Part shown: positions 3,238 through 60,670 of the stretch, piece after piece
Layout of the letters: every line of letters starts with the position of its first letter
How positions within the stretch are numbered: position 1 is the first letter of the stretch
Source: Spirochaetales bacterium
GTDB lineage: Bacteria > Spirochaetota > Spirochaetia > SZUA-6 > RPPD01
NCBI GenBank assembly: GCA_016929065.1
Contig: JAFGJO010000002.1
Location: 1 to 64,000, forward strand
DNA length: 64,000 nucleotides
Direction: 5' to 3'
Notes under the pieces: model-generated
The model's input: the letters and a program-made list of their open reading frames with translations, nothing else
Told to the model about the DNA's origin: nothing
Databases searched by the model: none
Translations under genes and position numbers: made by a program

Positions 3238-4694
3238 ATTTTTTCCTGATATTTTTCAAATTCCTGCAGACTGTATCTATTGACGATAATAATACGGTTG
3301 AGCAAAAGAAGGGTATTGCTGAAATCAGTTTGCCTGCGGTCAGATATCCGCCGCAGCAGGGGGGAATTGTTTTCCCTGCCGAGCCATTCACGAAACCCGT
3401 TACTCTTTTCAAATATTTCGTTTAATTCCGAATAGCTTGTGTTAACAAATTTTTCAATATCGCTATACAGCTGCGGATTAACAGTTTTTGAGTAGGAATT
3501 TGATTCAATGACGCCTTTGAATTTTTGCAGATGGTCATCATACAGCGAAATAGTCGTGATAAGTTCTTTCAAGGACACTTTGTTGCGTTCGATTTTACCT
3601 TTTAATGTCAGAAATGAAAAGTGAACATCACCGCCGCTTAATGCATCACCCCGCCCGGTAAAAATAATTCTGAAAAAATTCAGTATGCGCTTGAACAGGG
3701 AGCGCTGTCGCAATAAATCAAGCGACTCTCGCAGAAATTCTCCCAAAATTTGAAGATTTTCGTGCTGTGTACAGTACCGGGCGGCAATTTCACGCAGGCG
3801 GTATGCTTTGCTGACTGCTTTTTTTTTATCAGCAAGCTCGTATTTTGATGAAATTTCTGTAGCAATTTGTGATTCGCTTTTTTCCAGATCTGCGATGATG
3901 ATCAGATTGAGCTCCGGATTGTTCTTTACACCCAGCTCATTGCTCTTTTTCCGGAGCAGCTCATCATACATCGACATTTCTTCACGGTATGTTGTATATG
4001 ATCCGATGATTATTTTTGCATGATCAAAGAGATTGATAAAATAAATATCACCAAGGATCATCTCGAGCCGGTCAAAAAAGGGGGTGATATTTGTTTCTAT
4101 TCTGTCCTCAATATTTTTTTTCAGTGTGAATGCAAGATCCCGCTGATGTTTTTGAAGAAGGTTGATGTTTGGATTTGCAAATTGTTCTGTCAGAAATGCG
4201 AGGAGAAATGTGTGTGCTTTTCGAATCAGCTTGATATCGATAATTTCAATCACCAGGGGATTAAAAAGATATGAATTTTGGATTGCATAAATATTGTTGA
4301 TCACAGCAATCAGTGTATTCGAATTGAACATGGTATCGGTATGAATGTTTTTCGGAACAAGATCGGGAATCGTGAGCCTTGTTGCTTTGTGATTCACTGA
4401 ATCTTTCCATAGTTTTTCATCTGAAAATGCATAGGGGAAAAGATGGTCGCGAAGGCCCTCAAGAGAAGATATTATCTGGTAATAATATGATGAAATATAG
4501 TCTTTTGCCTTGAAAAGTTTTTCCTTTTCCTTGGCAAGAAACTGGTATAGATCCTGTAATGCCATATTTTCCCCATATATAAACTTTTTATAATCATACT
4601 CAATCTGAAGTGTATTAGCAAGTAAATGTTGAATTGTACTGCTTGAGGCCGGTTTTTCATGGCTGTCACAGATGTCTGACTGCTTTTTCAGCAA
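3234..4694 (-). CDS. conserved hypothetical protein, helical
   Basis: 486-aa ORF on the opposite strand to nadE with convergent, overlapping 3' ends; no recognised domain. Confidence 0.65.
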   Translation of the reverse strand: MLKKQSDICDSHEKPASSSTIQHLLANTLQIEYDYKKFIYGENMALQDLYQFLAKEKEKLFKAKDYISSYYYQIISSLEGLRDHLFPYAFSDEKLWKDSVNHKATRLTIPDLVPKNIHTDTMFNSNTLIAVINNIYAIQNSYLFNPLVIEIIDIKLIRKAHTFLLAFLTEQFANPNINLLQKHQRDLAFTLKKNIEDRIETNITPFFDRLEMILGDIYFINLFDHAKIIIGSYTTYREEMSMYDELLRKKSNELGVKNNPELNLIIIADLEKSESQIATEISSKYELADKKKAVSKAYRLREIAARYCTQHENLQILGEFLRESLDLLRQRSLFKRILNFFRIIFTGRGDALSGGDVHFSFLTLKGKIERNKVSLKELITTISLYDDHLQKFKGVIESNSYSKTVNPQLYSDIEKFVNTSYSELNEIFEKSNGFREWLGRENNSPLLRRISDRRQTDFSNTLLLLNRIIIVNRYSLQEFEKYQEKI

Positions 4695-18663: not shown

Positions 18664-20091
18664 ATGGCAAAAATAACCTCGCGAAGTACAGATTATTCCC
18701 AGTGGTATATTGATATTGTGATGCAGGCACAGTTGGCCGATTATTCTCCGGTCAAAGGGTGCATGGTCATCCGTCCGCGGGGGTATGCACTCTGGGAAAA
18801 AATACAGAGTGTCCTGGATTCAAAATTCAAGGAAACCGGACATTCAAACGCGTATTTTCCCATGTTGATTCCTGAAAGCTTTTTAAAAAAAGAAGCCGAA
18901 CATGTTGAAGGCTTTTCACCGGAGCTTGCCGTTGTCACAATCGCAGGCGGGGAAACTTTGGAGGAGCCGTTGGTTGTCCGCCCGACATCCGAGACAATCA
19001 TTTGGAGCATGTATAAAAAATGGATTCAATCATACCGCGACCTGCCGATCTTGATTAATCAATGGGCGAATGTGATCAGGTGGGAAAAACGGACCCGCTT
19101 GTTTTTACGCACGACAGAATTCCTGTGGCAGGAAGGGCATACTGCCCATGCTACACAGGAAGAGGCCGAAGAAGAAACGCGAAAAATGCTTTTGGTTTAT
19201 AAAAGTTTCGCAGAAGAATATATGGCGCTTCCGGTGATCGCCGGTGAAAAGACAGAAGCAGAAAAGTTTGCCGGGGCAGTCAAAACCTATTCAATCGAAG
19301 CGATGATGCAGGATAAAAAAGCATTGCAGGCAGGCACCTCCCATGATTTGGGACAAAACTTTGCAAAAGCGTTCGACGTTACCTTTCAGAGTCCTGACGG
19401 GAAACTGGAATATGTCTGGGCATCTTCGTGGGGTGTATCGACCCGTCTGATTGGTGCGCTTATTATGGCGCATTCCGATGACCGGGGACTCGTGCTTCCG
19501 CCGCGGCTTGCACCGACATTAATAAGGATTGTCCCGATATTTAAAACCGAAACACGTCCCCGGGTCGTCGAATATGCCATGGGAGTTTTCAATAATTTAA
19601 AACCGCATTTTTCTGTGGAAATTGATCTGGATGATAATACATCGCCCGGGTTCAAGTTTGCTCAAACAGAATTATTGGGAATACCACTTCGAATAGAAAT
19701 TGGCCCCAAGGATATTGAAAATAATGAAATGGTGCTTGTCCGGCGTGACACAGGTGAAAAAATAAAAGCATCGCCGTCAGGATTAATTGACCGGATCAAA
19801 GTATTGTGTGAAGATATTCAGAACACGCTGTATCACCGCGCGCTTGTTTTTCGGAAAGAGAATACAGTGCTTCTGGAAAAGTATTCCGATTTTACTGAGT
19901 TCATGGAAAAAGAGGCCGGGTTTGTAGATACCGGCTGGTGCGGGGATTCAGCCTGTGAAACGAAAATCAAGGAAGAGACGAAAGCGACAATCAGAAATAT
20001 TCCTTTAGGGAGAGATGAGCTCCAGCATGGAGCGTGCATTTACTGCGGGAAGCCTTCCTGTCATGATGTGATATTTGCAAAGGCATACTGA
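18664..20091 (+). CDS. proS: prolyl-tRNA synthetase (archaeal/eukaryotic-like, ProS type 3)
   Basis: [92 protein letters not shown]. Confidence 0.96.
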
Positions 20092-27696: not shown

Positions 27697-29892
27697 CTAT
27701 TTTTTCCGGATTACAAAGAGCGAAGCATCGTCCGCAAGATGTCCATTATACTTCTTGATGTCCCCTGTTTTTGAATGGAGCTGTACCGCTTCCATGATGG
27801 ATTCCATAATACTATTCAAGTCATCTGATGCGTGTTCCACCAGAATCTGTATCAGGTTTTTTACCCCAAATTGATGGGAGTAATGGTCTTTCGCTTCAAT
27901 GATGCCATCGGTATACAAAAGCAGCACATCTCCACTTTTCATTTCAAAGTATCCGGCAGATGATTCTGATGCGATATGCTCGGAAATTCCCAGAAAAGCC
28001 GTTCTGTTTGAAAGTTCATCCAGTTCTCTCACTGTTTCATCATGTTTCTGGTAAAGGAGTGAGATGACATGACTGCCGGCATGGTATATTTTTCCTTCCC
28101 GTTCCAGAAAGTAGTTTTGGGTCATGAATTTATCACTGCCGATCCGGTTTCGGTTTATTTCACAAAGCACTTTGTTGACCAGGTCGTAAATTTCAAACGG
28201 CTCAAGCCGTTTTTTCAGAGTCCGTGAAGCCATGACTGCGGCCTGAAACGCAGAGAGCTGAATGAGCGCCGTAATACCAGCTGGTAATCCATGGCCGCTG
28301 ACATCGCCGATCCCGAAATAGGTTCCAAATTCCGAAGACGAATAATCATATACATCTCCTCCAACTTCAGTCGCAGTCGTCATGGATGCAGCACACTCAT
28401 ATCCGGGGATGTCAATCGTTTTGGGAACAATGGAGGTTTGAATTTGTTTTGCAATTTCAATTTCACCCTGAAGCCTGTTTCGTTCCATTTGAATATATTT
28501 GCCTTCGATAATTGAATAAATCACCTTTAAATTTTCAATTAATACCTGCAGGGCATTTTCTTCCTCGGGGAAAAAACGGTCGAACGAATCTTTAAAAATA
28601 ACCAGAATTCCCCGCAGATAGTCATTGTCAAAAATCGGGAAAAGTCCGATCATCCGCTGAAGCCCTTTTATTTCTTCCGGAATTTTATCGATAATAACCG
28701 GTTTTTTGGTATCCAGAATGGTTTTTATCAGTTTTTCACCATACATGGACAGATTTTCCGGGTTTGTATTTTGAATTATATCGATATTGAAGGTGGCTTT
28801 TAAAATATTTTCATGAAGCTGTTCTTTTCGTTTCAGATGTTTGAGCATGTCGAGCCGTATAAGTGGAAGACAGTATCCATAAATATGCTCTTCCGAGAAT
28901 ACTTTCAGCAGTTTTCCGGACCGGGAATAAACCAGGGCACCGGAGATACCATACTCATGAATTGTAAGAAGTGCTTTTGCACGGGTTATCGCATCGACAA
29001 TACTGTCCCGGATGATATTGATATCTTCTTCGGTTGTACTATTAATGACACTGCCAATGAGCTCGTTTTTTAGTTGAAGGGTTTCAGCCTGTTTTTCAAT
29101 TCTCCTGTCCAAATTCTGGGTTCTCTGAAAAAAGTACTCATTGATAATGCGAACACCATAGACGATGTTACTGATAATAAAAAACCAGAGATACACATAA
29201 TTGGAAAATCCAAAAATAATAAAATAGAAAACATAGAATACTGTGGTGAGAATCGCTGTATTAGCCAGAATTGCGCTTTTGCGGATCACTCCTTCCTGAA
29301 ACTGAAACAGCCGTCTGTTGAATCCGATGACAAAGACGAGTTGTACTCCAAAAAAGATTAGTGACAAAAACAGAGACACGATTCTGAAATCCTCTTTAAA
29401 CAGTTCGCCTGTCTGACGCAATGTTTCCAAATTGTCCGCACCATGAAAACCGCTCCCCTGTGTTATTGCGCCTTCGAAGGAATTTCTTAAGAAAAAGAGG
29501 ATAATTGCCAGAAGCGAGACACCGGAGAGAATGATTAAAAAAACAAGAAAGCTTTTCAGTTTGGGTGTAAATTCATCCTGAAAGAAACTTTTGGAAATTC
29601 GTTGGGAATGAATTGAGTAATCGGCAAAAAAATACGCCAAAAGATAGATTATTGCAAAGATTGTATACAGCATGAAGGATGATTCCGGGGGGAATATCCC
29701 GGGAACAAGAATTGTCAACAGGGTGACCAGTCCGATTCCCAGCATAAGCAGCATGGAAATACCAAAATATACCGGCCGCTTGCCGAATTGAGGGCGGTCT
29801 GTCACATCTTTCCATAAAATAAAGGCAGTAAACAGGATTGGTACAAAAGATGAAACATAGATAACCATTAAAATATTCATTATTGAATTCAT
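27697..29892 (-). CDS. multi-TM SpoIIE/RsbU-type PP2C serine phosphatase
   Basis: N-terminal TM array; GAF-like middle; QTSIVPKTI...EVGGDVYDY...FGIGDVSGHGLPAGITALI, LLLYTDGIIEAKD. Confidence 0.88.
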   Translation of the reverse strand: MNSIMNILMVIYVSSFVPILFTAFILWKDVTDRPQFGKRPVYFGISMLLMLGIGLVTLLTILVPGIFPPESSFMLYTIFAIIYLLAYFFADYSIHSQRISKSFFQDEFTPKLKSFLVFLIILSGVSLLAIILFFLRNSFEGAITQGSGFHGADNLETLRQTGELFKEDFRIVSLFLSLIFFGVQLVFVIGFNRRLFQFQEGVIRKSAILANTAILTTVFYVFYFIIFGFSNYVYLWFFIISNIVYGVRIINEYFFQRTQNLDRRIEKQAETLQLKNELIGSVINSTTEEDINIIRDSIVDAITRAKALLTIHEYGISGALVYSRSGKLLKVFSEEHIYGYCLPLIRLDMLKHLKRKEQLHENILKATFNIDIIQNTNPENLSMYGEKLIKTILDTKKPVIIDKIPEEIKGLQRMIGLFPIFDNDYLRGILVIFKDSFDRFFPEEENALQVLIENLKVIYSIIEGKYIQMERNRLQGEIEIAKQIQTSIVPKTIDIPGYECAASMTTATEVGGDVYDYSSSEFGTYFGIGDVSGHGLPAGITALIQLSAFQAAVMASRTLKKRLEPFEIYDLVNKVLCEINRNRIGSDKFMTQNYFLEREGKIYHAGSHVISLLYQKHDETVRELDELSNRTAFLGISEHIASESSAGYFEMKSGDVLLLYTDGIIEAKDHYSHQFGVKNLIQILVEHASDDLNSIMESIMEAVQLHSKTGDIKKYNGHLADDASLFVIRKK

Positions 29893-50646: not shown

Positions 50647-51906
50647 ATGGAAGCGACGACGATAGTATTTGTTTTTTTGGGATTTTTTATTGCAGAAAAT
50701 GTGTGGGAAACTCTTCTGCTGATTCTCCACCTGCGCTATATTTCCAGTCACAAGGATGATATCCCCGCCTTTGTTGACCAAGAGGAAGGCAGGGAGAAGA
50801 TGCACAAGTCGGTTGATTACAGCATTACCAGGGGCCGGTTTTCTCTTGTTGCCTCGGTATTTTCTGCGGCATTGCTGTTGGTGATTGTGTTTGCAAAACT
50901 GCTGGGCATGCTTGATGTATGGCTTGCGGGATTTTCTTTGGGAATGTATCTGCACGGGCTGGTGTTTTTGGGCATCGTCTCATTTGCTTTTTCCCTGTTT
51001 TCCCTGCCGTTCTCGATTTACAGCCAGTTTGTCATAGAAAAACATTTCGGATTCAACACGATGACGCCCCTGTTATTTGTATTTGACCGGCTCAAAGGCC
51101 TGGTGTTGGGGCTGCTTCTGGGTGTTCCGCTTTTACTGGGACTGTTCTGGTTCATGGAAACGACCGGCAGTTTCTGGTGGCTGTTTGCAGCGGGATTTGT
51201 TGTTGTCTTCCAGCTTGTAGTATCGGTGCTGTATCCGACGGTCATCGCCCCGCTGTTTAACAAATTTCAGCCGCTTCCGGAGGGCGAACTCAAGGAGAAA
51301 ATACAGCAACTCCTCATAAAACTCAAATACCGCACTGCGGGAATATTCATTATGGACGGGAGCAAACGGTCAAAACACAGTAATGCCTATTTTACGGGAT
51401 TTGGAAAAACAAAACGGATTGTGCTGTTTGACACATTGGTTGATACTTTGTCCCCCGAGGAAATTACGGCGGTATTTGCGCATGAGCTGGGACACGAGAA
51501 AAAGGGGCATATTATCAAGGGATTTCTTGTATCGATTGTCGCAACAATTGTTTCGTTTTTTGTCCTGTCGTTGCTTTTGGGGTGGACACCGCTGTACAAA
51601 GCCTTTGGGTTTGAAGCGGTGAGTTATCCCTATCATGCGTTGATCGCACTGGTGAGTCTGTTTGCCGGGTCGTTCACTTTTTTTCTGAAGCCGCTGGGGT
51701 CGATTTTTTCGCGGAGAAACGAGTACCAGGCTGATTGCTTTGCACGGGACGTGATGGACAACAATCCAAAGCCCCTTGTCAGCGCCCTGCTGAAACTGTC
51801 AAAAGACAATCTGGGGCTGATCAATCCGCATCCATTGTACAGTTTTTTCCATTATTCACACCCGACGCTGCGGGAACGGATCGCGGCTTTGGAGAAAAAA
51901 GGGTAA
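50647..51906 (+). CDS. M48-family (Ste24/CAAX-type) zinc metalloprotease
   Basis: FAHELGHEKKGHI, multiple TM, RRNEYQADCFARDV, HPTLRERIAAL; start at 50647 with AGGAAGG ribosome-binding site. Confidence 0.92.
   Translation: MEATTIVFVFLGFFIAENVWETLLLILHLRYISSHKDDIPAFVDQEEGREKMHKSVDYSITRGRFSLVASVFSAALLLVIVFAKLLGMLDVWLAGFSLGMYLHGLVFLGIVSFAFSLFSLPFSIYSQFVIEKHFGFNTMTPLLFVFDRLKGLVLGLLLGVPLLLGLFWFMETTGSFWWLFAAGFVVVFQLVVSVLYPTVIAPLFNKFQPLPEGELKEKIQQLLIKLKYRTAGIFIMDGSKRSKHSNAYFTGFGKTKRIVLFDTLVDTLSPEEITAVFAHELGHEKKGHIIKGFLVSIVATIVSFFVLSLLLGWTPLYKAFGFEAVSYPYHALIALVSLFAGSFTFFLKPLGSIFSRRNEYQADCFARDVMDNNPKPLVSALLKLSKDNLGLINPHPLYSFFHYSHPTLRERIAALEKKG
51850..51899 (+). repeat. 50-bp direct repeat, copy 1 (3' end of the M48 protease gene)
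   Basis: cattattcacacccgacgctgcgggaacggatcgcggctttggagaaaaa, identical to 53339-53388. Confidence 0.97.
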
Positions 51907-52175
51907 GAGAGCATTCATCGAGGAGATTTCGCACGGAAGAAAACGAAAATAATAGCCTCACAGAAACCTGAATGCCTCATGCAAGCAAAGCGGAATCTGT
52001 ACGAATTCCTGCGGAAATGAGGTTGTGTAATACAGAATATATTTTTCGGGAAAAAACGGATAGGAAATATACAGCAGAAAAATGAAAATTATGCTATTAA
52101 TTTCTATCAATTAATTTTTCTGAAAATTATCAAATTGTTTTCTTTTCCTGTCAGTTTCCCCACAAGGAGGAACAA

Positions 52176-53213
52176 GTGATTGAAATCACACGATATAAAA
52201 TAAAAACCATATTAATGACTCTGATGATTTTATTGCTTATTGGATGTTCTGCGCCCGGACAGTCGGAACAACAAAGCGGTACAGAAGTGACTGTAACGAC
52301 AGGCGCGATAAGTTTTGATCTCCGATATATCCGCAGCGGATCATATTATGTTGGAGACAATCCGCCTGCGGCTGCTAATGTCACATTGACAGACGGGTAC
52401 TGGATTGGCGAGACAGAGGTTACCTATAATCTCTGGTATGAAGTGTATCAATGGGCAACCGATGATACCAACGGCGATGGGATAATTGACGATGACGGGA
52501 ACGGGAGTCGTAATGCAGATGGTGGTCTGCTTTATGATTTTGCAAATTCGGGGGCTGAAGGAAGCAGCGGATCCCCTGGTGCAGCCCCGACACCATCAAC
52601 TTGGGAACCTGTTGTTGCTGTCAGCTGGCGTGATAATATCCTTTTTTGTAATGCCTTATCTGAAAAATCTGGACTAAGCCCTGTGTACTGTTCTGACATC
52701 GATTATTTGACTCCTTTGCGAACAGTTACCACTAACGCTGCTCTTGATACTACTGCCGGACATGAAGATAACCCATATGTTAACTGGAATGCAAACGGGT
52801 ACCGGATGCCAACTGAAGTCGAATGGGAAATAGCAGGCCGGGGAGCCGGGCCAGCTATAAGTGCCGGAACCTACGGGACTACATATGCGGGAAGCGATAT
52901 TATTGATGACGTGGCATGGATTTTTGACAATAGCGGTGTTGAATCACACGATGTGGGGACATTAGATCCCAATGAACTGGGTCTCTATGATATGAGTGGA
53001 AATGTACTGGAGTTTTGCTGGGACTGGTATGGCGGTACGTTCCCGTTTGCAGGCTCGGATCCTTCCGGCCCGGTAACCGGGACAGAGCGGGAAACACGCA
53101 GCGGAACGTTTGGATGGAGCGCGTCAGGCAGCGAGGTCACTCGTCGTGTTGCGGCTTATAGTCCACCGAGTAGCGTCAATGCCCTGGGAATTCGAATTGC
53201 AAAAAATCAGTAA
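52176..53213 (+). CDS. SUMF1/FGE-fold (C-type-lectin-like) lipoprotein
   Basis: lipobox LLIGCSAP; DGYWIGETEVTYNLWYEVYQWA, GYRMPTEVEWEIAGRG, LGLYDMSGNVLEFCWDWYGG; ribosome-binding site AAGGAGG. Confidence 0.85.
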   Translation: MIEITRYKIKTILMTLMILLLIGCSAPGQSEQQSGTEVTVTTGAISFDLRYIRSGSYYVGDNPPAAANVTLTDGYWIGETEVTYNLWYEVYQWATDDTNGDGIIDDDGNGSRNADGGLLYDFANSGAEGSSGSPGAAPTPSTWEPVVAVSWRDNILFCNALSEKSGLSPVYCSDIDYLTPLRTVTTNAALDTTAGHEDNPYVNWNANGYRMPTEVEWEIAGRGAGPAISAGTYGTTYAGSDIIDDVAWIFDNSGVESHDVGTLDPNELGLYDMSGNVLEFCWDWYGGTFPFAGSDPSGPVTGTERETRSGTFGWSASGSEVTRRVAAYSPPSSVNALGIRIAKNQ

Positions 53214-53247
53214 CACAATCATCCCATAGGTAATAAATTGTTTACAC

Positions 53248-53280
53248 GGCAGTTTTAGCATATGCAATTGTAAAACTGCC
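53248..53280 (+). terminator. hairpin downstream of the SUMF1-like lipoprotein gene (possible terminator)
   Basis: GGCAGTTTTA (13-nt loop) TAAAACTGCC, perfect 10-bp stem; the following T tract is weak. Confidence 0.5.
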
Positions 53281-53338
53281 ATGTTTTATTCTAACATACT
53301 TTGTATACAAAAACTTTGTGGTTGAAACATCTCCCTTT

Positions 53339-53388
53339 CATTATTCACACCCGACGCTGCGGGAACGGATCGCGGCTTTGGAGAAAAA
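53339..53388 (+). repeat. 50-bp direct repeat, copy 2 (orphan 3' end of an M48 protease gene)
   Basis: identical 50 nt; encodes HYSHPTLRERIAALEKKK-stop with no upstream gene. Confidence 0.97.
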
Positions 53389-53408
53389 GAAATAACAACT
53401 GAGTAAGA

Positions 53409-53439
53409 AACGGTGCTCGCGGTGAACGCGAAGCCCGTT
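53409..53439. other. GC-rich hairpin
   Basis: AACGG(t)GCTCGCG-gtgaa-CGCGA(a)GCCCGTT; 12 paired bases with two single-nt bulges. Confidence 0.6.
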
Positions 53440-53506
53440 GAGGGAAGAAGGGTGGAGAAAACATGAAAAGAAATACTCTCAAAAAGGTAATAGTGAATTT
53501 TCTTTT

Positions 53507-54193
53507 TTACTCTTCTGATTTGTATATCTGAAAATCCTGAGGTATCTCAAAAACCGATGCAGGAATTTCGTTATTTACCTGTATTGCTGTGGCAATTGTC
53601 GTATCGGTGATTGTCCTGTCCCCTGTGTTAAATTTCATCTCATGCATGAGAATGATCCCGTTCCATCCTGCGATCGTCGTGACAGCCGGGATGCTCTGTT
53701 CTTCAATACTGAATGCGCGGCAATTCTTTCCCGCCACATTCAGGTTGGAAAGTAAATTGGCCCCGGGGTATTTTTCGGGGGCAAACGGCATTTCCGTTCC
53801 AAGGCTGGTGCTTTTCTCCTGAATCCCAACCTTCTTGTCGAAATTCAGCTCATAATGGAAAATCCCGTCATCCACAACCTTGCCGATCAGGATTCCGTTG
53901 ACATAGGTTTCCTTTACTTCCCGACAGCCATAATCGTCAAAATAGAGATTGTAGGTCCATTTTTCGTTTATTGCAGCAAGCATTTCATTGCGTGTTTCAT
54001 ACACAATAATCCCGGAGGCAATAGAGTATTTGGCGGATGTATCAACTGCGGCGGGGGTTTCAGGCTCGCCGGTATCAGCGCAGCTGGATATGCCGGAAAG
54101 TACGAGCATCATGATTATTGCCGCAATAGCTATAACCACCCTGTTCCGTGATTTTGTTTGAAGCCGGCTGATTAAAATTATTTTGTTACACAT
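53507..54193 (-). CDS. putative lipoprotein, unknown function
   Basis: lipobox-like SGISSCADTG; 228 aa. Confidence 0.65.
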   Translation of the reverse strand: MCNKIILISRLQTKSRNRVVIAIAAIIMMLVLSGISSCADTGEPETPAAVDTSAKYSIASGIIVYETRNEMLAAINEKWTYNLYFDDYGCREVKETYVNGILIGKVVDDGIFHYELNFDKKVGIQEKSTSLGTEMPFAPEKYPGANLLSNLNVAGKNCRAFSIEEQSIPAVTTIAGWNGIILMHEMKFNTGDRTITDTTIATAIQVNNEIPASVFEIPQDFQIYKSEE

Positions 54194-54300
54194 GATGAAA
54201 ATCTACGAAAAACACTTATTTGTGTAAATAGGGGAAAACACCTATTTACACAGCTTTGGTATTTTATTTTTTTGTTTATTGTCTCAAGGAGGTTAAAAAA

Positions 54301-54594
54301 ATGTTTCTTTTAGTGATGACTGTAATCCTGATTTTCAGCTGTAAACCATAAGTAGTGCAGGATACCGGGGAGGAGGATAGCCTGGCCGCGGATATCCCCG
54401 AGTCATTCCTACTGTCCGGTTCCAGGTAGGTAGAATCGTGGAAGGAAGGGGCAGTGGCCGTCCTAAAAACGCAGGTAAAATAGTGGTATATAACAAGCGC
54501 GAAAAGTTTCATTTTTATGAGAAAGGGATCACTGCCCGGGCAGCCTGAATTAAAGGGATGGCAGAAGCGGAACGCCGGCTGCGCAATAGCTAAA
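54301..54594 (+). pseudogene. decayed small lipoprotein gene
   Basis: AAGGAGG before ATG; MFLLVMTVILIFSCKP-stop, VVQDTGEEDSLAADIPESFLLSG, then frameshift to VGRIVEGRGSGRPKNAGKIVVYNKREKFHFYEKGITARAA-stop-IKGMAEAERRLRNS-stop. Confidence 0.5.
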
Positions 54595-55318
54595 CCATAT
54601 CATTTTTATTCAAATTAAATTCTTCGTTTTCTTTGCCCGGTGAGGAAATCATATTTTCAAGAACGGATCTTTTCTTGCGGTTTTCAAGCGCGATCTGCGC
54701 TGCAGATTTTGCCACAATGACCAGCACAAGGATTACCAGGTGATGCCACGTTGCGGTCAACCGTAAAAACACACTCGCACCATAGACAAGACCGAAGGCA
54801 GTGAGAAACAAAATCGGAAAAACATAAATTTCAAGCGCATAATCATCAGATTCAAGAAATTTGTTCTCCCTGGTTTTTGCGAATGACAAGATTAATCCCG
54901 CAGTATATTCCCCTGTAATAAGTACAACCGCAGTAAAATTAATCCATAAAAACCCCGTAATATCTTCTATTGCAATAATTGCACCCTCCGCTGCACCCGG
55001 AGCAAATGCAGCGTGAATGATGAATGTACCGGTAAGCAGAAAAAAAGCAATATGGTAAATCATGATAAAAAAAACAGTAAGAATGATTCCAAAAACTGAT
55101 TTCCCCTCTTCATCTCCGGTTTTCATCGCATAAATTATTATCCGGGGAATCATAAAAACAGTGCTCACTGCAAGCTCAAATGCATAAAATAAAAATAGCT
55201 CTCTTCCAGACCAGTTAAAAACAACAAACCCGAAAAAAGGAATGCAGTTTAAAACCACGAAAGCCGCATACTGGCTATAGTCGAATAACCCAAGGGGAGT
55301 GCGAATTTTATTTTTCAC
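54590..55318 (-). CDS. multi-TM protein (DUF6498-like)
   Basis: 242 aa, about six hydrophobic segments; family name tentative. Confidence 0.6.
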   Translation of the reverse strand: MKNKIRTPLGLFDYSQYAAFVVLNCIPFFGFVVFNWSGRELFLFYAFELAVSTVFMIPRIIIYAMKTGDEEGKSVFGIILTVFFIMIYHIAFFLLTGTFIIHAAFAPGAAEGAIIAIEDITGFLWINFTAVVLITGEYTAGLILSFAKTRENKFLESDDYALEIYVFPILFLTAFGLVYGASVFLRLTATWHHLVILVLVIVAKSAAQIALENRKKRSVLENMISSPGKENEEFNLNKNDMV

Positions 55319-55529
55319 GGAATAAAACCTCTGGCTGGGATGATATACCTTTTTTGTTTTTGCGAAAAGCAGGAGAATACCCTCTGAATTTACTGGGCTT
55401 TAAACTATTTTGATCAAACATACTTTACATACTATATCATTATATGATGTAATTTGGTCAAATGAAGTTACAAATACTGAATCAAACAAGAATTGTTTGA
55501 TCGATACTTCATAAAGGAAAATAAAGTTT

Positions 55530-56093
55530 ATGAATAATCAATGTAAATTTACAGTGCTTTTGATTCTTGCAATGGTACTAACCTTTGCTGCCTGCAGCGG
55601 AGCTGGTACAGATCCAATCACCATGTATACCATTGGCGATACGGGCCCAAGTGGAGTAGGTATTGTATTCTACATAACAGATGGCGGACTGCATGGATTA
55701 GAAGCAGCCCCTTCATTATGGGAAAATGTTACTGAAGATCCGGTCGCACAGTGGAAAACATCAGGGACAACAACGGCTGGTACATCAGCAGCTATTGGAA
55801 CAGGTTATGCAAATACATATACTTATCTGACGGGCTCAGAACATCCTGCCGCTGCGTTGTGCAGGGCATATAGCGGCGGCGGCCTGAGTGACTGGTTTTT
55901 ACCGTCTCAAAATGAATTGGATGCGTTATACTGGTGGCAGGATACTAATGGCGGTAGTTTTGTCGAAGATAGTTATTGGAGCTCGACCGAAGCTGGTGAG
56001 ACACTCGCGCGCTACCAGGGATTCATTAATGGCAATCAGGGTTCCGCCACCAAGACTGGTTCATTGTACGTGCGTGCGGTGCGGGCTTTTTAA
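55530..56093 (+). CDS. DUF1566/Lcl-type (C-type-lectin-like) lipoprotein
   Basis: lipobox TFAACSGAG; GDTGPSGVGIVFYITDGGLHGLEAAP, DWFLPSQNELDALY, EDSYWSSTEAGE...LYVRAVRAF. Confidence 0.8.
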   Translation: MNNQCKFTVLLILAMVLTFAACSGAGTDPITMYTIGDTGPSGVGIVFYITDGGLHGLEAAPSLWENVTEDPVAQWKTSGTTTAGTSAAIGTGYANTYTYLTGSEHPAAALCRAYSGGGLSDWFLPSQNELDALYWWQDTNGGSFVEDSYWSSTEAGETLARYQGFINGNQGSATKTGSLYVRAVRAF

Positions 56094-56526
56094 CCATTCA
56101 ACCGGTTGCTTTTTTCAGCTGGTCTTTTGCTCAAGGCCTTCAGGATACAATGGAATACTGGTTTACTATTTATTCAAGCATTCTGTAATGATCGCGCAGA
56201 ATTTCCCCGGTTTTCTCATTCCGCAAATGGAGGCTGTTTCCCTCGCACTATTTGTATTCTTTTCCGTCTGCATAAATCCCCGGCTTCATCCAGCGGCTTG
56301 TCACTGACAGCATTGTCTTTTATACAGTCGCTGACGCAATGAATACAGGTGCGGTTGCACCCCCGCATGAAGCCGCGTACTGATCTTCATACACCACTTC
56401 GTAGCGGGCAAAGATATCCCGAAACAACTGCTGAATGACAATCTGCTGTTTGGGGTGATAGTAGTACTGGGATATTTCAATTTTCGGTTCTTTGTAAAAG
56501 AGTACTGCCACACAGTGTAATCATGG

Positions 56527-56556
56527 GACATCTAATAACTTCAGTTATTTGATGTC
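56527..56556. repeat. 30-bp near-perfect palindrome
   Basis: GACATCtAATAACT-TC-AGTTATTtGATGTC. Confidence 0.85.
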
Positions 56557-56700
56557 TGCCAATACACCCTATCTGGTGTGGAGCTTTCAAAAAAAAGTTC
56601 TGCAACTTTCAGAAATATGTCCGGAGCAGGTTTGCCGAAGGCAACTTCTTCTGCAGATTTTCATGTATCAATCCCATCGTGCGGAAAGAAAAGTGCAGCT
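56541..56700 (-). pseudogene. fragment of a HAD-superfamily hydrolase (beta-phosphoglucomutase-like)
   Basis: minus-strand translation ...FPHDGIDT-stop-KSAEEVAFGKPAPDIFLKVAELFFESSTPDR; GKPAPDIF is the HAD motif III-type signature. Confidence 0.6.
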
Positions 56701-56775
56701 GCATCGATGTGCTTAGATACATTTAATTCTGGTGCAATAAAATGAATACAGATAATGGTAGATGAAATCAGAAGG

Positions 56776-57924
56776 TTACTGAGTCCTCGCAAAGCGAAAT
56801 CTTGAACCGTTGTACGCATCGTCCGGGTAACTCTCACTCCAATAGCCGACTTGCATGTATACAGCAGTACTGATCCAGCTACCACCTCGCCCTATGCGGG
56901 TAGAGCCTCCAGTAAAACACCACTCCCAGACATTTCCGCTCATGTCATACAGTCCCAGCTGATTGGCTGCTTTCTGCGCTACGGGCATCAGTTTATCCCC
57001 ACTCATATCCGGATCTCCTGTAAACCAGGCTACCGCCCTGGTGTCTGTCTCGTTTGAATAGTCTCTCATCGCTCCACTCGCGTAATCCGATGGTGTCCAG
57101 TAATAACCGGCTGTCAATGTCGCATCACCCGAATTAAAACTCTGCGCAACATATTCGGTCCTAAGATTTCCACCTGTCGGCGTGGTTGTACCAATATACC
57201 GGGCCGCGTACTCCCACTCTTCACTGGAAGGGAGGCGATAGCCGTTTCTTTCATTATTATCTACAGTTTCCGAATGATCCCAGATTGAACCAATGCCCGT
57301 GTACACCTCATTATCAGTAGTTCCATCCCGCATCTCCGTCAGCCAGTTGCAGAACATAATGTCGCCGTACCAGGTTATACAGACCACCGGGTGATCCTCA
57401 TACCCGGAAACAACCGTGAAACTGCCCGTGGAATAAGTGATCTTTATATCTGTATCAGCAAGATCAAGAAGCTGTTGTGTGCCATATTTTACTGTTGTGG
57501 AATCGATACCATTATGATCTGTCACGGTTGTGCTGAATTTCCCGTTATCATAGGCCCACTGCAATACTTCTGCCATGAGAGCATTGGTCACCTGCGTCTC
57601 GCTCATGAAAAACTTTCTCGTCAGGGTCGCCGGATTATTGTCAACCGGGTTTCCTGCGCTCGGTGAAAAAGGAAAGGTGATGCTCATCTGATTATTGGCA
57701 TAGATCATGTCAACCGTCTCTGATCCTACGGTTATAGACACTATATCACCGGGCGTGTCGGCTGAATCAAAGGTCACAGGAGTTGAACCGCCAATTCCGT
57801 CGCAGGCAGTGAAGGAAAGCGTGGCCGAGAGCATTACTATTGCCACGAATTTTAATTGAAATTTCATAAGTTCCTCCAGAAATATCAATGATATTTTCTG
57901 AGTGAAATTCTCTATATATTTCAT
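56776..57924 (-). CDS. SUMF1/FGE-fold (C-type-lectin-like) lipoprotein
   Basis: lipobox SFTACDGIG (internal start MKFQLKFVAIV likely); MSETQVTNALMAEVLQWA, GYRLPSSEEWEYAARY, LGLYDMSGNVWEWCFTGGS, IGRGGSW...SRFRFARTQ. Confidence 0.85.
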   Translation of the reverse strand: MKYIENFTQKISLIFLEELMKFQLKFVAIVMLSATLSFTACDGIGGSTPVTFDSADTPGDIVSITVGSETVDMIYANNQMSITFPFSPSAGNPVDNNPATLTRKFFMSETQVTNALMAEVLQWAYDNGKFSTTVTDHNGIDSTTVKYGTQQLLDLADTDIKITYSTGSFTVVSGYEDHPVVCITWYGDIMFCNWLTEMRDGTTDNEVYTGIGSIWDHSETVDNNERNGYRLPSSEEWEYAARYIGTTTPTGGNLRTEYVAQSFNSGDATLTAGYYWTPSDYASGAMRDYSNETDTRAVAWFTGDPDMSGDKLMPVAQKAANQLGLYDMSGNVWEWCFTGGSTRIGRGGSWISTAVYMQVGYWSESYPDDAYNGSRFRFARTQ

Positions 57925-58327
57925 TGAAATCTATTAATAATTGCACTGTATTATCCATGTGTCAATGACTAAAGTTACATTTTCTAATGAATATCATCTG
58001 ATTTAGTCTTAGTAATGTTATATTCAAACAAATGATAGGAATTATTGTAGTCCCCTTTGCCGGTTGCCCTGGATTACGCGGACTCAGCGACTATTATTAC
58101 AGGTTCGTCAAGCTCAAGCACATAGGCCGTACAAACATTTCGCGGAAATTTTCACTGATACGATATTTGAACCCATATCCCATGAGGCAGCCCAGTATAT
58201 TGTAGTCTCAATTAGGGTTGGTGCATCTTGATATGGCCCGGAACTGCCGGTCCGCATCCTGCGTTTGCAGGAACATGCGTTCTTCCGGATGTCGCGCAAG
58301 ACATACACTTTTCACTTGAGGTAATTT

Positions 58328-58502
58328 AAAGGAGACGAGGATGCATCCGGTTATCCGCGGCTTTAAAAAGATTTTTATCGGTGGAGAGCATGAACAGTTT
58401 CTCGTTTGGTGACAGTTTGATGGGGGCAGCTGCCTGGGCAGTGAGCACAACGATGGAAATACAAAAAAGCGCAGAAAATAAAATAAAACGGCTATGTAGC
58501 AT
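58328..58502 (-). pseudogene. short secreted-protein ORF, possibly a truncated gene
   Basis: ribosome-binding site GGAGGAGAAAAGTC before ATG at 58502; MLHSRFILFSALFCISIVVLTAQAAAPIKLSPNEKLFMLSTDKNLFKAADNRMHPRLL then stop. Confidence 0.35.
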
Positions 58503-58597
58503 GACTTTTCTCCTCCTGGCTTCGTCATAACACACCCAAAAAATATTTTCAACCGGTGGCGAAAAAATCGTCACAAGGCAGGGAAGTTTCGTCTGTC

Positions 58598-58960
58598 TCA
58601 ACCCTGATATGCTTTTTGCAATACTGCAATATCGAACTTTTTCATCTGCAGAAATGCCCTGGTAACCCGGCTGATCTGTTCGGCACTGCCGTTCTGCATC
58701 ATCTCATCCATCTTCGCCGGGGTAATCTGCCAGGAGATGCCGAACATATCCTTCAGCCAGCCGCACTGTTCGGCCTCCGGGACTGCCGAAAGGTGTTCCC
58801 AGTAATAATCGATTTCTTCCTTGGTTTCGCAGCGGACCATAAAAGAAACTGCTTCATTAAAAGCGAATTTATGCGGGTGTGCGCTGTCCATAGCTGCGGG
58901 ACTATTTTTTGATTGATTGTTGTCATCACTTTCTCCTGAATAATGGTGTTTTTTTGGCAT
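58598..58960 (-). pseudogene. N-terminally truncated VOC/PhnB-like protein
   Basis: [60 protein letters not shown]...[17 protein letters not shown] matches the C-terminal half; the usual N-terminal half is missing or out of frame. Confidence 0.6.
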
Positions 58961-59146
58961 GCATTGAAGAGACTCACGCTAAAAGAGAAATGCCAGTATT
59001 CTGCCCTTGGGGCAAGAAGTCGCAACTGATTTTCAAACTCCGCATCAAGGCGGGCACTGTGTTCTGGGAAAGCAGTTGACTGACATTTTGCTGCCTGGAT
59101 CGATAATGGTATTGGGATGATAAAAATATCTGTGATACACTAATGA

Positions 59147-60169
59147 GTGCCGCCACATGTGATATACAAACATGTTGCGGTGCTAACCATGCAACATGTT
59201 TGTATTAAAAAGACTATCCTTGTCTTTTCGTCTGCCGCAAGGTATCATTCTCTTGTGAAACCAACAGTAAATCTTTTTTTCCTGACAGGACTTCTGTTCT
59301 ACTCCGGCTGTCTTGGAACAAAAACAAATGCAATCGTTCCGCGGCAAAGGCCTGTAATTTCCAGGGACGGGCATACATTTGTCACGGATGACGGGAAACT
59401 GCTGCGCGGGGCATATTGGTCAACGGATTGGAACGGGGCTTTGCCGCAAAGGTCATATTTTTCGGAATTAAGAAAGCGTAATCTGAACACACTCCACCTG
59501 TATGGTGAATCCTTTGCATCGGGACAAAAAGCCGGAATGTATAAAAATCAGATTGATACCCTTGTACGCTGGACTCGGGAAGAAGGGTTTTACCTGGTTT
59601 TAACAATAGGAAACCTCGATAAAAACGGAACATATGATCCGGATTTCATCAAAGAGTTCTGGAAAATCTATGCACCCCGTTTTGCGAATGAAACCCATGT
59701 GGTGTATGAGATCCAGAATGAGCCATTTGCATGGCAAGCCGGATATGCTGAGGATGTTCTGGAAATGGAGATGGATGCCTGTCTGCAGATCCGCAAGCTC
59801 GCGCCGAACACCCCTGTCCTGCTCATGAGTTATGCGCGATTTGTTACACCGGAAGATGTCCTGAAAGATATGAGAAAGATCGACAGTGTAGTGGATTTTC
59901 AAAATGCAGCTATTGCCTTTCATGGATATGCAGGAGCAGAAGAAACCGGGAAAACATTGCAGCTTGTTCTGGAGGCCGGATATCCTTGCATTAATACAGA
60001 ATTTGCGATTCTGCACGATGCTGATCAGGTACTTTCCGTGGATCCATGGGTCCTGAAGCTTTGTGAAGACTATCAAATATCCTGGATCGTTTTTTTAACC
60101 GAAGGGCAGATAGAAAAGCCGGAGATGTTTTCCGGTCTTTTGAAAAAAAATAACATTGCATGGCAATAA
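59147..60169 (+). CDS. GH5-like secreted/lipoprotein glycosidase
   Basis: YSGCLG lipobox-like; YEIQNEP acid/base motif; CINTEFAI candidate nucleophile; start uncertain (59147 or a downstream Met). Confidence 0.68.
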   Translation: MPPHVIYKHVAVLTMQHVCIKKTILVFSSAARYHSLVKPTVNLFFLTGLLFYSGCLGTKTNAIVPRQRPVISRDGHTFVTDDGKLLRGAYWSTDWNGALPQRSYFSELRKRNLNTLHLYGESFASGQKAGMYKNQIDTLVRWTREEGFYLVLTIGNLDKNGTYDPDFIKEFWKIYAPRFANETHVVYEIQNEPFAWQAGYAEDVLEMEMDACLQIRKLAPNTPVLLMSYARFVTPEDVLKDMRKIDSVVDFQNAAIAFHGYAGAEETGKTLQLVLEAGYPCINTEFAILHDADQVLSVDPWVLKLCEDYQISWIVFLTEGQIEKPEMFSGLLKKNNIAWQ

Positions 60170-60232
60170 GCATGATGCCAATCCAGGTTTTCTTATGAAT
60201 ACTTCTCCCGGTCTTCTTAATAAATTCTTCTT

Positions 60233-60670
60233 CTATTCTTTACTGATCGCGTATTTGTCCACCAGCTTGTTCAGTTCATCGGGAATTGATGGCCTGTTAT
60301 TGACAATACAAGTCGCCGACACAATTGCCTGGGCTGCGGGAATGCGGCCGGGAAGAATCAGGATATCCTGTAAAAACAAAAGCCGCAGCCGGCCTTTACG
60401 TGCGAGATTGCAGCCAATGACAAAAGAGGTCCCGCTTGAAAGCGGCTGTTTGTAATCAATTTCAACGCGGGTAACCACCGCGTCGATACCCCGTTTGTGC
60501 ATGTCGGCAAAATCCATCCCCATGTATTTCAGGAATTCATGGCGGGCATGTTCCAGGTAGTTCAGGTATACCGAGTTGTTGACGATTCCTTCCAGATCCA
60601 GCTCATAGTCTCGGACACTCATTTCCAGTTCGTATTCATATTGTTTCACGGTGTTCTCCTCTGCAGTCAA
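60233..60670 (-). CDS. YbgC-like acyl-CoA thioesterase
   Basis: VRDYELDLEGIVNNSVYLNYLEHARHEFLKYMG hotdog signature. Confidence 0.85.
   Translation of the reverse strand: MTAEENTVKQYEYELEMSVRDYELDLEGIVNNSVYLNYLEHARHEFLKYMGMDFADMHKRGIDAVVTRVEIDYKQPLSSGTSFVIGCNLARKGRLRLLFLQDILILPGRIPAAQAIVSATCIVNNRPSIPDELNKLVDKYAISKE

Follow-up and report, generated by a model that had tools for sequence, protein, structure and literature searches.

How does the end of a protease gene come to stand twice, without a single mismatch, on either side of a lipoprotein gene? The question arises in a 64,000-nt stretch of spirochaete DNA (the window), which is part of a 128-kb contig (C50) in a draft genome of 3.49 Mb and 69 contigs. 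Here, a gene for an M48 metalloprotease is followed by the lipoprotein gene FGE1 and then by a second copy of 50 nt from the protease gene end. The duplication is real, recent and well delimited, it sits at a variable locus and it is an event of a known kind. On present evidence we regard it as an ordinary insertion scar.

The repeat and the gene that it encloses

The M48 gene (CAAX-prenyl-protease/Ste24-type; 50647-51906, forward strand; PF16491, 179 bits; PF01435, 125 bits) is intact, and its orthologues in genomes of the same family are 54-58% identical. Copy 1 of the repeat (51850-51899, forward strand) is part of its coding 3' end, and copy 2 lies on the same strand at 53339-53388, 50/50 identical and 1489 nt away; when the alignment starts at 51847/53336, identity is 52/53. 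Towards 5' the identity ends within the M48 gene, towards 3' just ahead of the stop codon. Copy 1 closes the M48 reading frame (...FFHYSHPTLRERIAALEKKG, then stop), and copy 2 translates as FHYSHPTLRERIAALEKKK followed by a stop, with M48 sequence absent upstream. An earlier note, made from the sequence alone, had described a perfect recurrence of the M48 3' end, a second copy running in frame into a stop with no gene upstream, and a spacing of 1489 bp that encloses the lipoprotein gene. All of this holds, with the FGE1 frame (52176-53213) between the copies, and the exact identity, synonymous sites included, agrees with its view that the duplication is recent. At the junctions, copy 1 reads M48 followed by AAGGGTAAG, and the left side of copy 2 reads CATCTCCCTTT followed by CATTATT; the predicted empty or resident allele would read M48 followed by GAAATAACAAC.

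Among exact direct repeats of at least 20 nt, this 50-mer is the sole one in the window, which excludes a chance origin. Across the draft genome it occurs at exactly 2 places with up to 3 mismatches allowed, so a dispersed repeat was ruled out, and a degenerate version gave 0 matches in 25 other genomes of the same order; the search of this genome and its relatives that the earlier note had proposed thus ends with the two copies described here. The first 30 nt of the 50-mer had 0 matches in viral contigs, and no repeats of at least 15 nt matching the M48 end were found at the M48 genes of relatives. A third, degenerate copy was looked for between 53389 and 60700, up to the YbgC gene, and not found, which rules out several islands accreted at the same site. 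The flanks beyond the two copies show no convincing similarity to each other. By eye, the internal inverted repeat of the 50-mer amounts to just 4 bp (CCCG/CGGG).

A draft of 69 contigs calls for some suspicion of exact repeats near the k-mer size, and two strain variants might have been joined by the assembler. This is highly improbable. Exact overlaps of 86/87 nt between contig ends indicate a de Bruijn assembly with k near 87; this is far above 50 nt, so both repeat junctions should have been resolved by the assembly, and the contig starts examined contain no N. For the same reason, namely overlaps of 86/87 nt and not 50, a k-mer overlap artefact was ruled out as unlikely. Many contig ends, among them the starts of C17, C23, C45 and C51 and the ends of C20 and C65, carry arrays whose AG/CT-rich units measure about 32-33 nt; they seem to belong to a dispersed family of tandem repeats at which the assembly breaks.

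FGE1 (52176-53213, forward strand) encodes a 345-aa lipoprotein with a SUMF1/FGE-sulfatase domain (PF03781, 96.2 bits) and the lipobox LLIGC. The region upstream of it (51907-52175, forward strand) has a ribosome-binding site, AAGGAGG, near 52165. Downstream, at 53244-53284 on the forward strand, an inverted repeat (ACACGGCAGTTTTA ... TAAAACTGCCATGT, then TTTTATTCT) forms a hairpin with a T-rich tail, from its sequence a likely transcription terminator; it is absent from the list of our terminator scan, for which the loop limit was 8. The FGE1 unit is complete: an intact open reading frame, preceded by a ribosome-binding site of its own and followed by the hairpin. Its codon usage is the most deviating of the 29 window genes compared. 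Deviating codon usage is common in secreted lipoproteins, hence this is weak evidence for acquisition. Among 395 genomes of the phylum the best homologues of FGE1 are about 48% identical and no donor was found. To the right of copy 2 (53389-53540) lie a stretch resembling a ribosome-binding site and a 22-codon open reading frame, MKRNTLKKVIVNFLFYSSDLYI, which resembles the beginning of a lipoprotein gene that has been lost.

A variable interval and similar repeats elsewhere

Two other genomes of the same family, G001 and G002, share a conserved gene order in which M48 is followed by a convergent gene for a YbgC-like thioesterase and then by an HD-GYP gene. The M48 and YbgC frames of G002 are separated by about 38 bp and those of G001 by a single unrelated 489-aa lipoprotein gene, and in the present genome the spacing is 8.3 kb, with YbgC (60233-60670, reverse strand) as the conserved right border. 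As the contents differ in all three family members, the convergent M48-YbgC spot is variable within the family. The earlier note had proposed to look for an empty site in relatives; the comparison bears out a variable interval, but an empty site is seen at the family level only, and the nearest M48 is 57-58% identical. One further spirochaete M48 relative from the contig scan is 52% identical and carries no empty-site information.

The remainder of the interval (53389-60232) holds a 228-aa lipoprotein (g53507, reverse strand), a DUF6498 protein (reverse), an Lcl_C lipoprotein (forward), a second FGE lipoprotein (reverse) and a putative glycosidase (forward). The second FGE lipoprotein gene is flanked by two decayed IS91-type 5' ends (56363-56601 and 59012-59171). 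This IS91-type repeat also occurs on C10, C29, C60 and C65 and near the end of C50, and a sister copy has a zinc-binding transposase domain.

In the approximately 2.04 Mb of the genome examined for such structures, two further spaced repeats, each lone and well matched, resemble that of the M48 end. One is a 75-nt repeat of 99% identity in a signal-peptide coding stretch (C46:27416-27490 and 29257-29331, locus L162; 1841 nt apart) that encloses a 379-aa open reading frame and a DUF2442 gene, and whose second copy cuts a frame that reads by eye as ParE-like and has no Pfam match. With its ParE-like frame ending abruptly at the repeat, the C46 insert is a fragment with arbitrary ends. The other is a 123-nt repeat of 96% identity (C9:1039-1161 and 3708-3830, locus L072; 2669 nt apart), which encloses a 638-aa open reading frame and stands directly upstream of a DUF2569 gene. 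Neither is at a gene 3' end, which favours a general insertion or duplication process over one site-specific element. On the same contig, a gene end that we read as the 3' end of an IS66-type transposase is repeated at about 80-160 and 19235-19315 (L072), at a distance of 19.2 kb, and close by lies a broken fragment of a tyrosine recombinase.

Weighing the origins of the repeat

Both copies are followed by TAA at the same codon, after EKKG in copy 1 and EKKK in copy 2. Among noncoding positions of the window, a same-codon TAA was counted at 4.2%, and any stop within three codons at 8.8%. A shared stop is therefore rare in random downstream sequence (about 4%), which favours two genuine M48 ends over random filler. 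Judging by the stop position, both copies appear to be true ends of M48 genes that differ in the DNA behind them, and identity that ends before the stop, together with a TAA at the same codon, is what two such M48 alleles would be expected to give. The argument is post hoc and worth a factor of roughly 10-20.

We favour, though tentatively, a recent additive insertion as the source of the repeat, in which a circularised fragment would have joined the M48 end through a Campbell-type single crossover. The donor fragment would have carried the final 50 nt of an M48 allele with its stop and, downstream of these, the FGE1 gene; it would probably have come from a sister strain that has FGE1 beside M48. 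Once circularised, it would have undergone a single crossover at the homologous M48 end of the chromosome. The resident M48 gene would thereby have gained the donor end (EKKG and stop) together with FGE1, and its old end (EKKK and stop) would have been pushed 1489 bp downstream to become copy 2, with the old downstream DNA still attached. We observe the repeat and its uniqueness, its boundaries, the shared stop, the intact FGE1 gene and the variability of the interval, and we infer donor, circle, crossover and direction. The identity at synonymous sites in two places only, the differing contents of the M48-YbgC interval, the complete FGE1 unit with its deviating codon usage and the arbitrarily ended fragment within the comparable C46 repeat all point in this direction, and there is a precedent in Escherichia coli (PMC3240628). 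However, 50 bp is short for homologous recombination, and with the nearest M48 just 57-58% identical there is neither a same-species donor nor an empty allele to compare. Among the alternatives that the earlier note had named, an acquired piece carrying its own copy of the M48 end belongs to the best-supported family of explanations, given the same stop codon, the variable interval and the ribosome-binding site and hairpin of FGE1.

Both a decayed duplication and a filler sequence are disfavoured by the shared stop, which each of them can explain only as a coincidence. Tandem duplications are frequent in bacteria and their partial decay leaves spaced repeats, of which this genome has others. 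Hence the M48 end through FGE1 might have been duplicated in tandem and the second copy then deleted except for its first 50 nt. This possibility, also raised in the earlier note, survives as an unlikely one: downstream of copy 2, neither a second FGE1 nor the region upstream of it has left a trace, and a 4% coincidence would be needed to place the in-frame stop at the same codon. Templated filler, in which break repair placed 50 nt copied from the nearby M48 end into the spacer behind FGE1, would need one step only and would mean that FGE1 is no cassette. Copy 2 does lie in the spacer between the FGE1 hairpin and a convergent gene, and the C46 repeat can be read in the same way. We nevertheless consider filler decidedly unlikely, as its stop would again be coincidental (4.2%) and a filler of 50 nt is unusually long. 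Published work on bacterial spaced repeats and templated insertion offered nothing that applies directly.

The earlier note had also read the repeat as the trace of site-specific integration into a gene end, while stating that no recombinase lies inside. The latter is correct, FGE1 being the sole gene in the insert. In its fullest form, the former would make the locus a CIME-like, integrase-less remnant or a mini-element mobilised in trans, with the copies as attL and attR, the M48 3' end as attB and a tyrosine recombinase that is lost or encoded elsewhere. The anatomy fits (repeat length, gene 3' end, intact M48) and the genome does encode non-Xer tyrosine recombinases, but several results make an att remnant doubtful, and less likely than a RecA-type single crossover. 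The 1.5-kb insert and the window contain no recombinase, and all PF00589 matches of the genome are on contigs other than that of the window. When the M48 loci of 16 other genomes were queried with three recombinases of this genome (a search that covers their closer relatives), no relative was found. The M48 end has no match in phages and in plasmids occurs only within a true M48 gene, and FGE1 has no relative in viral contigs, so a virus, phage or plasmid element was ruled out. The 50-mer has an inverted repeat of 4 bp only, and there is no attC. It is very unlikely that FGE1 is a 1489-bp non-autonomous, integrase-less gene cassette whose moves into and out of the M48 3' end depend on a recombinase supplied in trans, so that surface lipoproteins would be exchanged within a spirochaete population and the protease would stay intact, and excision of the 1489-bp unit, as predicted from its layout, has a low probability.

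Comparison with known systems

The locus offers a fairly clean snapshot of a gene added beside a housekeeping gene without disruption, at the M48-YbgC border, which is different in every family member examined. Should the 1489-bp unit prove excisable, one would have a mobile gene unit of minimal size, lacking a recombinase of its own.

Like an integron gene cassette, FGE1 is a single-gene unit with a 3' hairpin, and the genome carries an integron, at L183 (C67, approximately 15.8-17.0 kb) and the C67 tail, as indicated by an integron integrase (TIGR02249, 422.8 bits) and a pair of attC-like hairpins behind it. However, the island has no attC-type site, and a 50-bp host-gene repeat is not a product of integron insertion. 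A simple attC scan gave 0 sites in 51800-60400 and the two near the genome's own integron integrase, and an integron cassette was thus ruled out.

For tyrosine-recombinase elements, direct repeats of 8-60 bp have been described, with housekeeping protein genes targeted at their 3' ends and kept intact; elements that have lost the integrase but keep their att sites are known as CIMEs (PMC5704250). In common with these IMEs and CIMEs, the locus has a direct repeat in the 8-60 bp range that includes a gene end, an intact target and cargo in between. It differs in having no integrase, a gene that CIMEs lack by definition, no transfer genes, a size of 1.5 kb only and no second example of the site.

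Another close system is the insertion-duplication seen in E. coli conjugation, where linear DNA is trimmed, ligated to a circle and integrated through a RecA-dependent single crossover (PMC3240628). The E. coli events started from a plasmid and duplicated 109-950 bp of the target gene end, whereas here the repeat is 50 bp, the donor is inferred and the example comes from one draft genome. In both, foreign DNA lies between two direct copies of a target gene end, the insert has no dedicated recombinase, and the length of the repeat would be set by the point at which the fragment was trimmed (PMC3240628).
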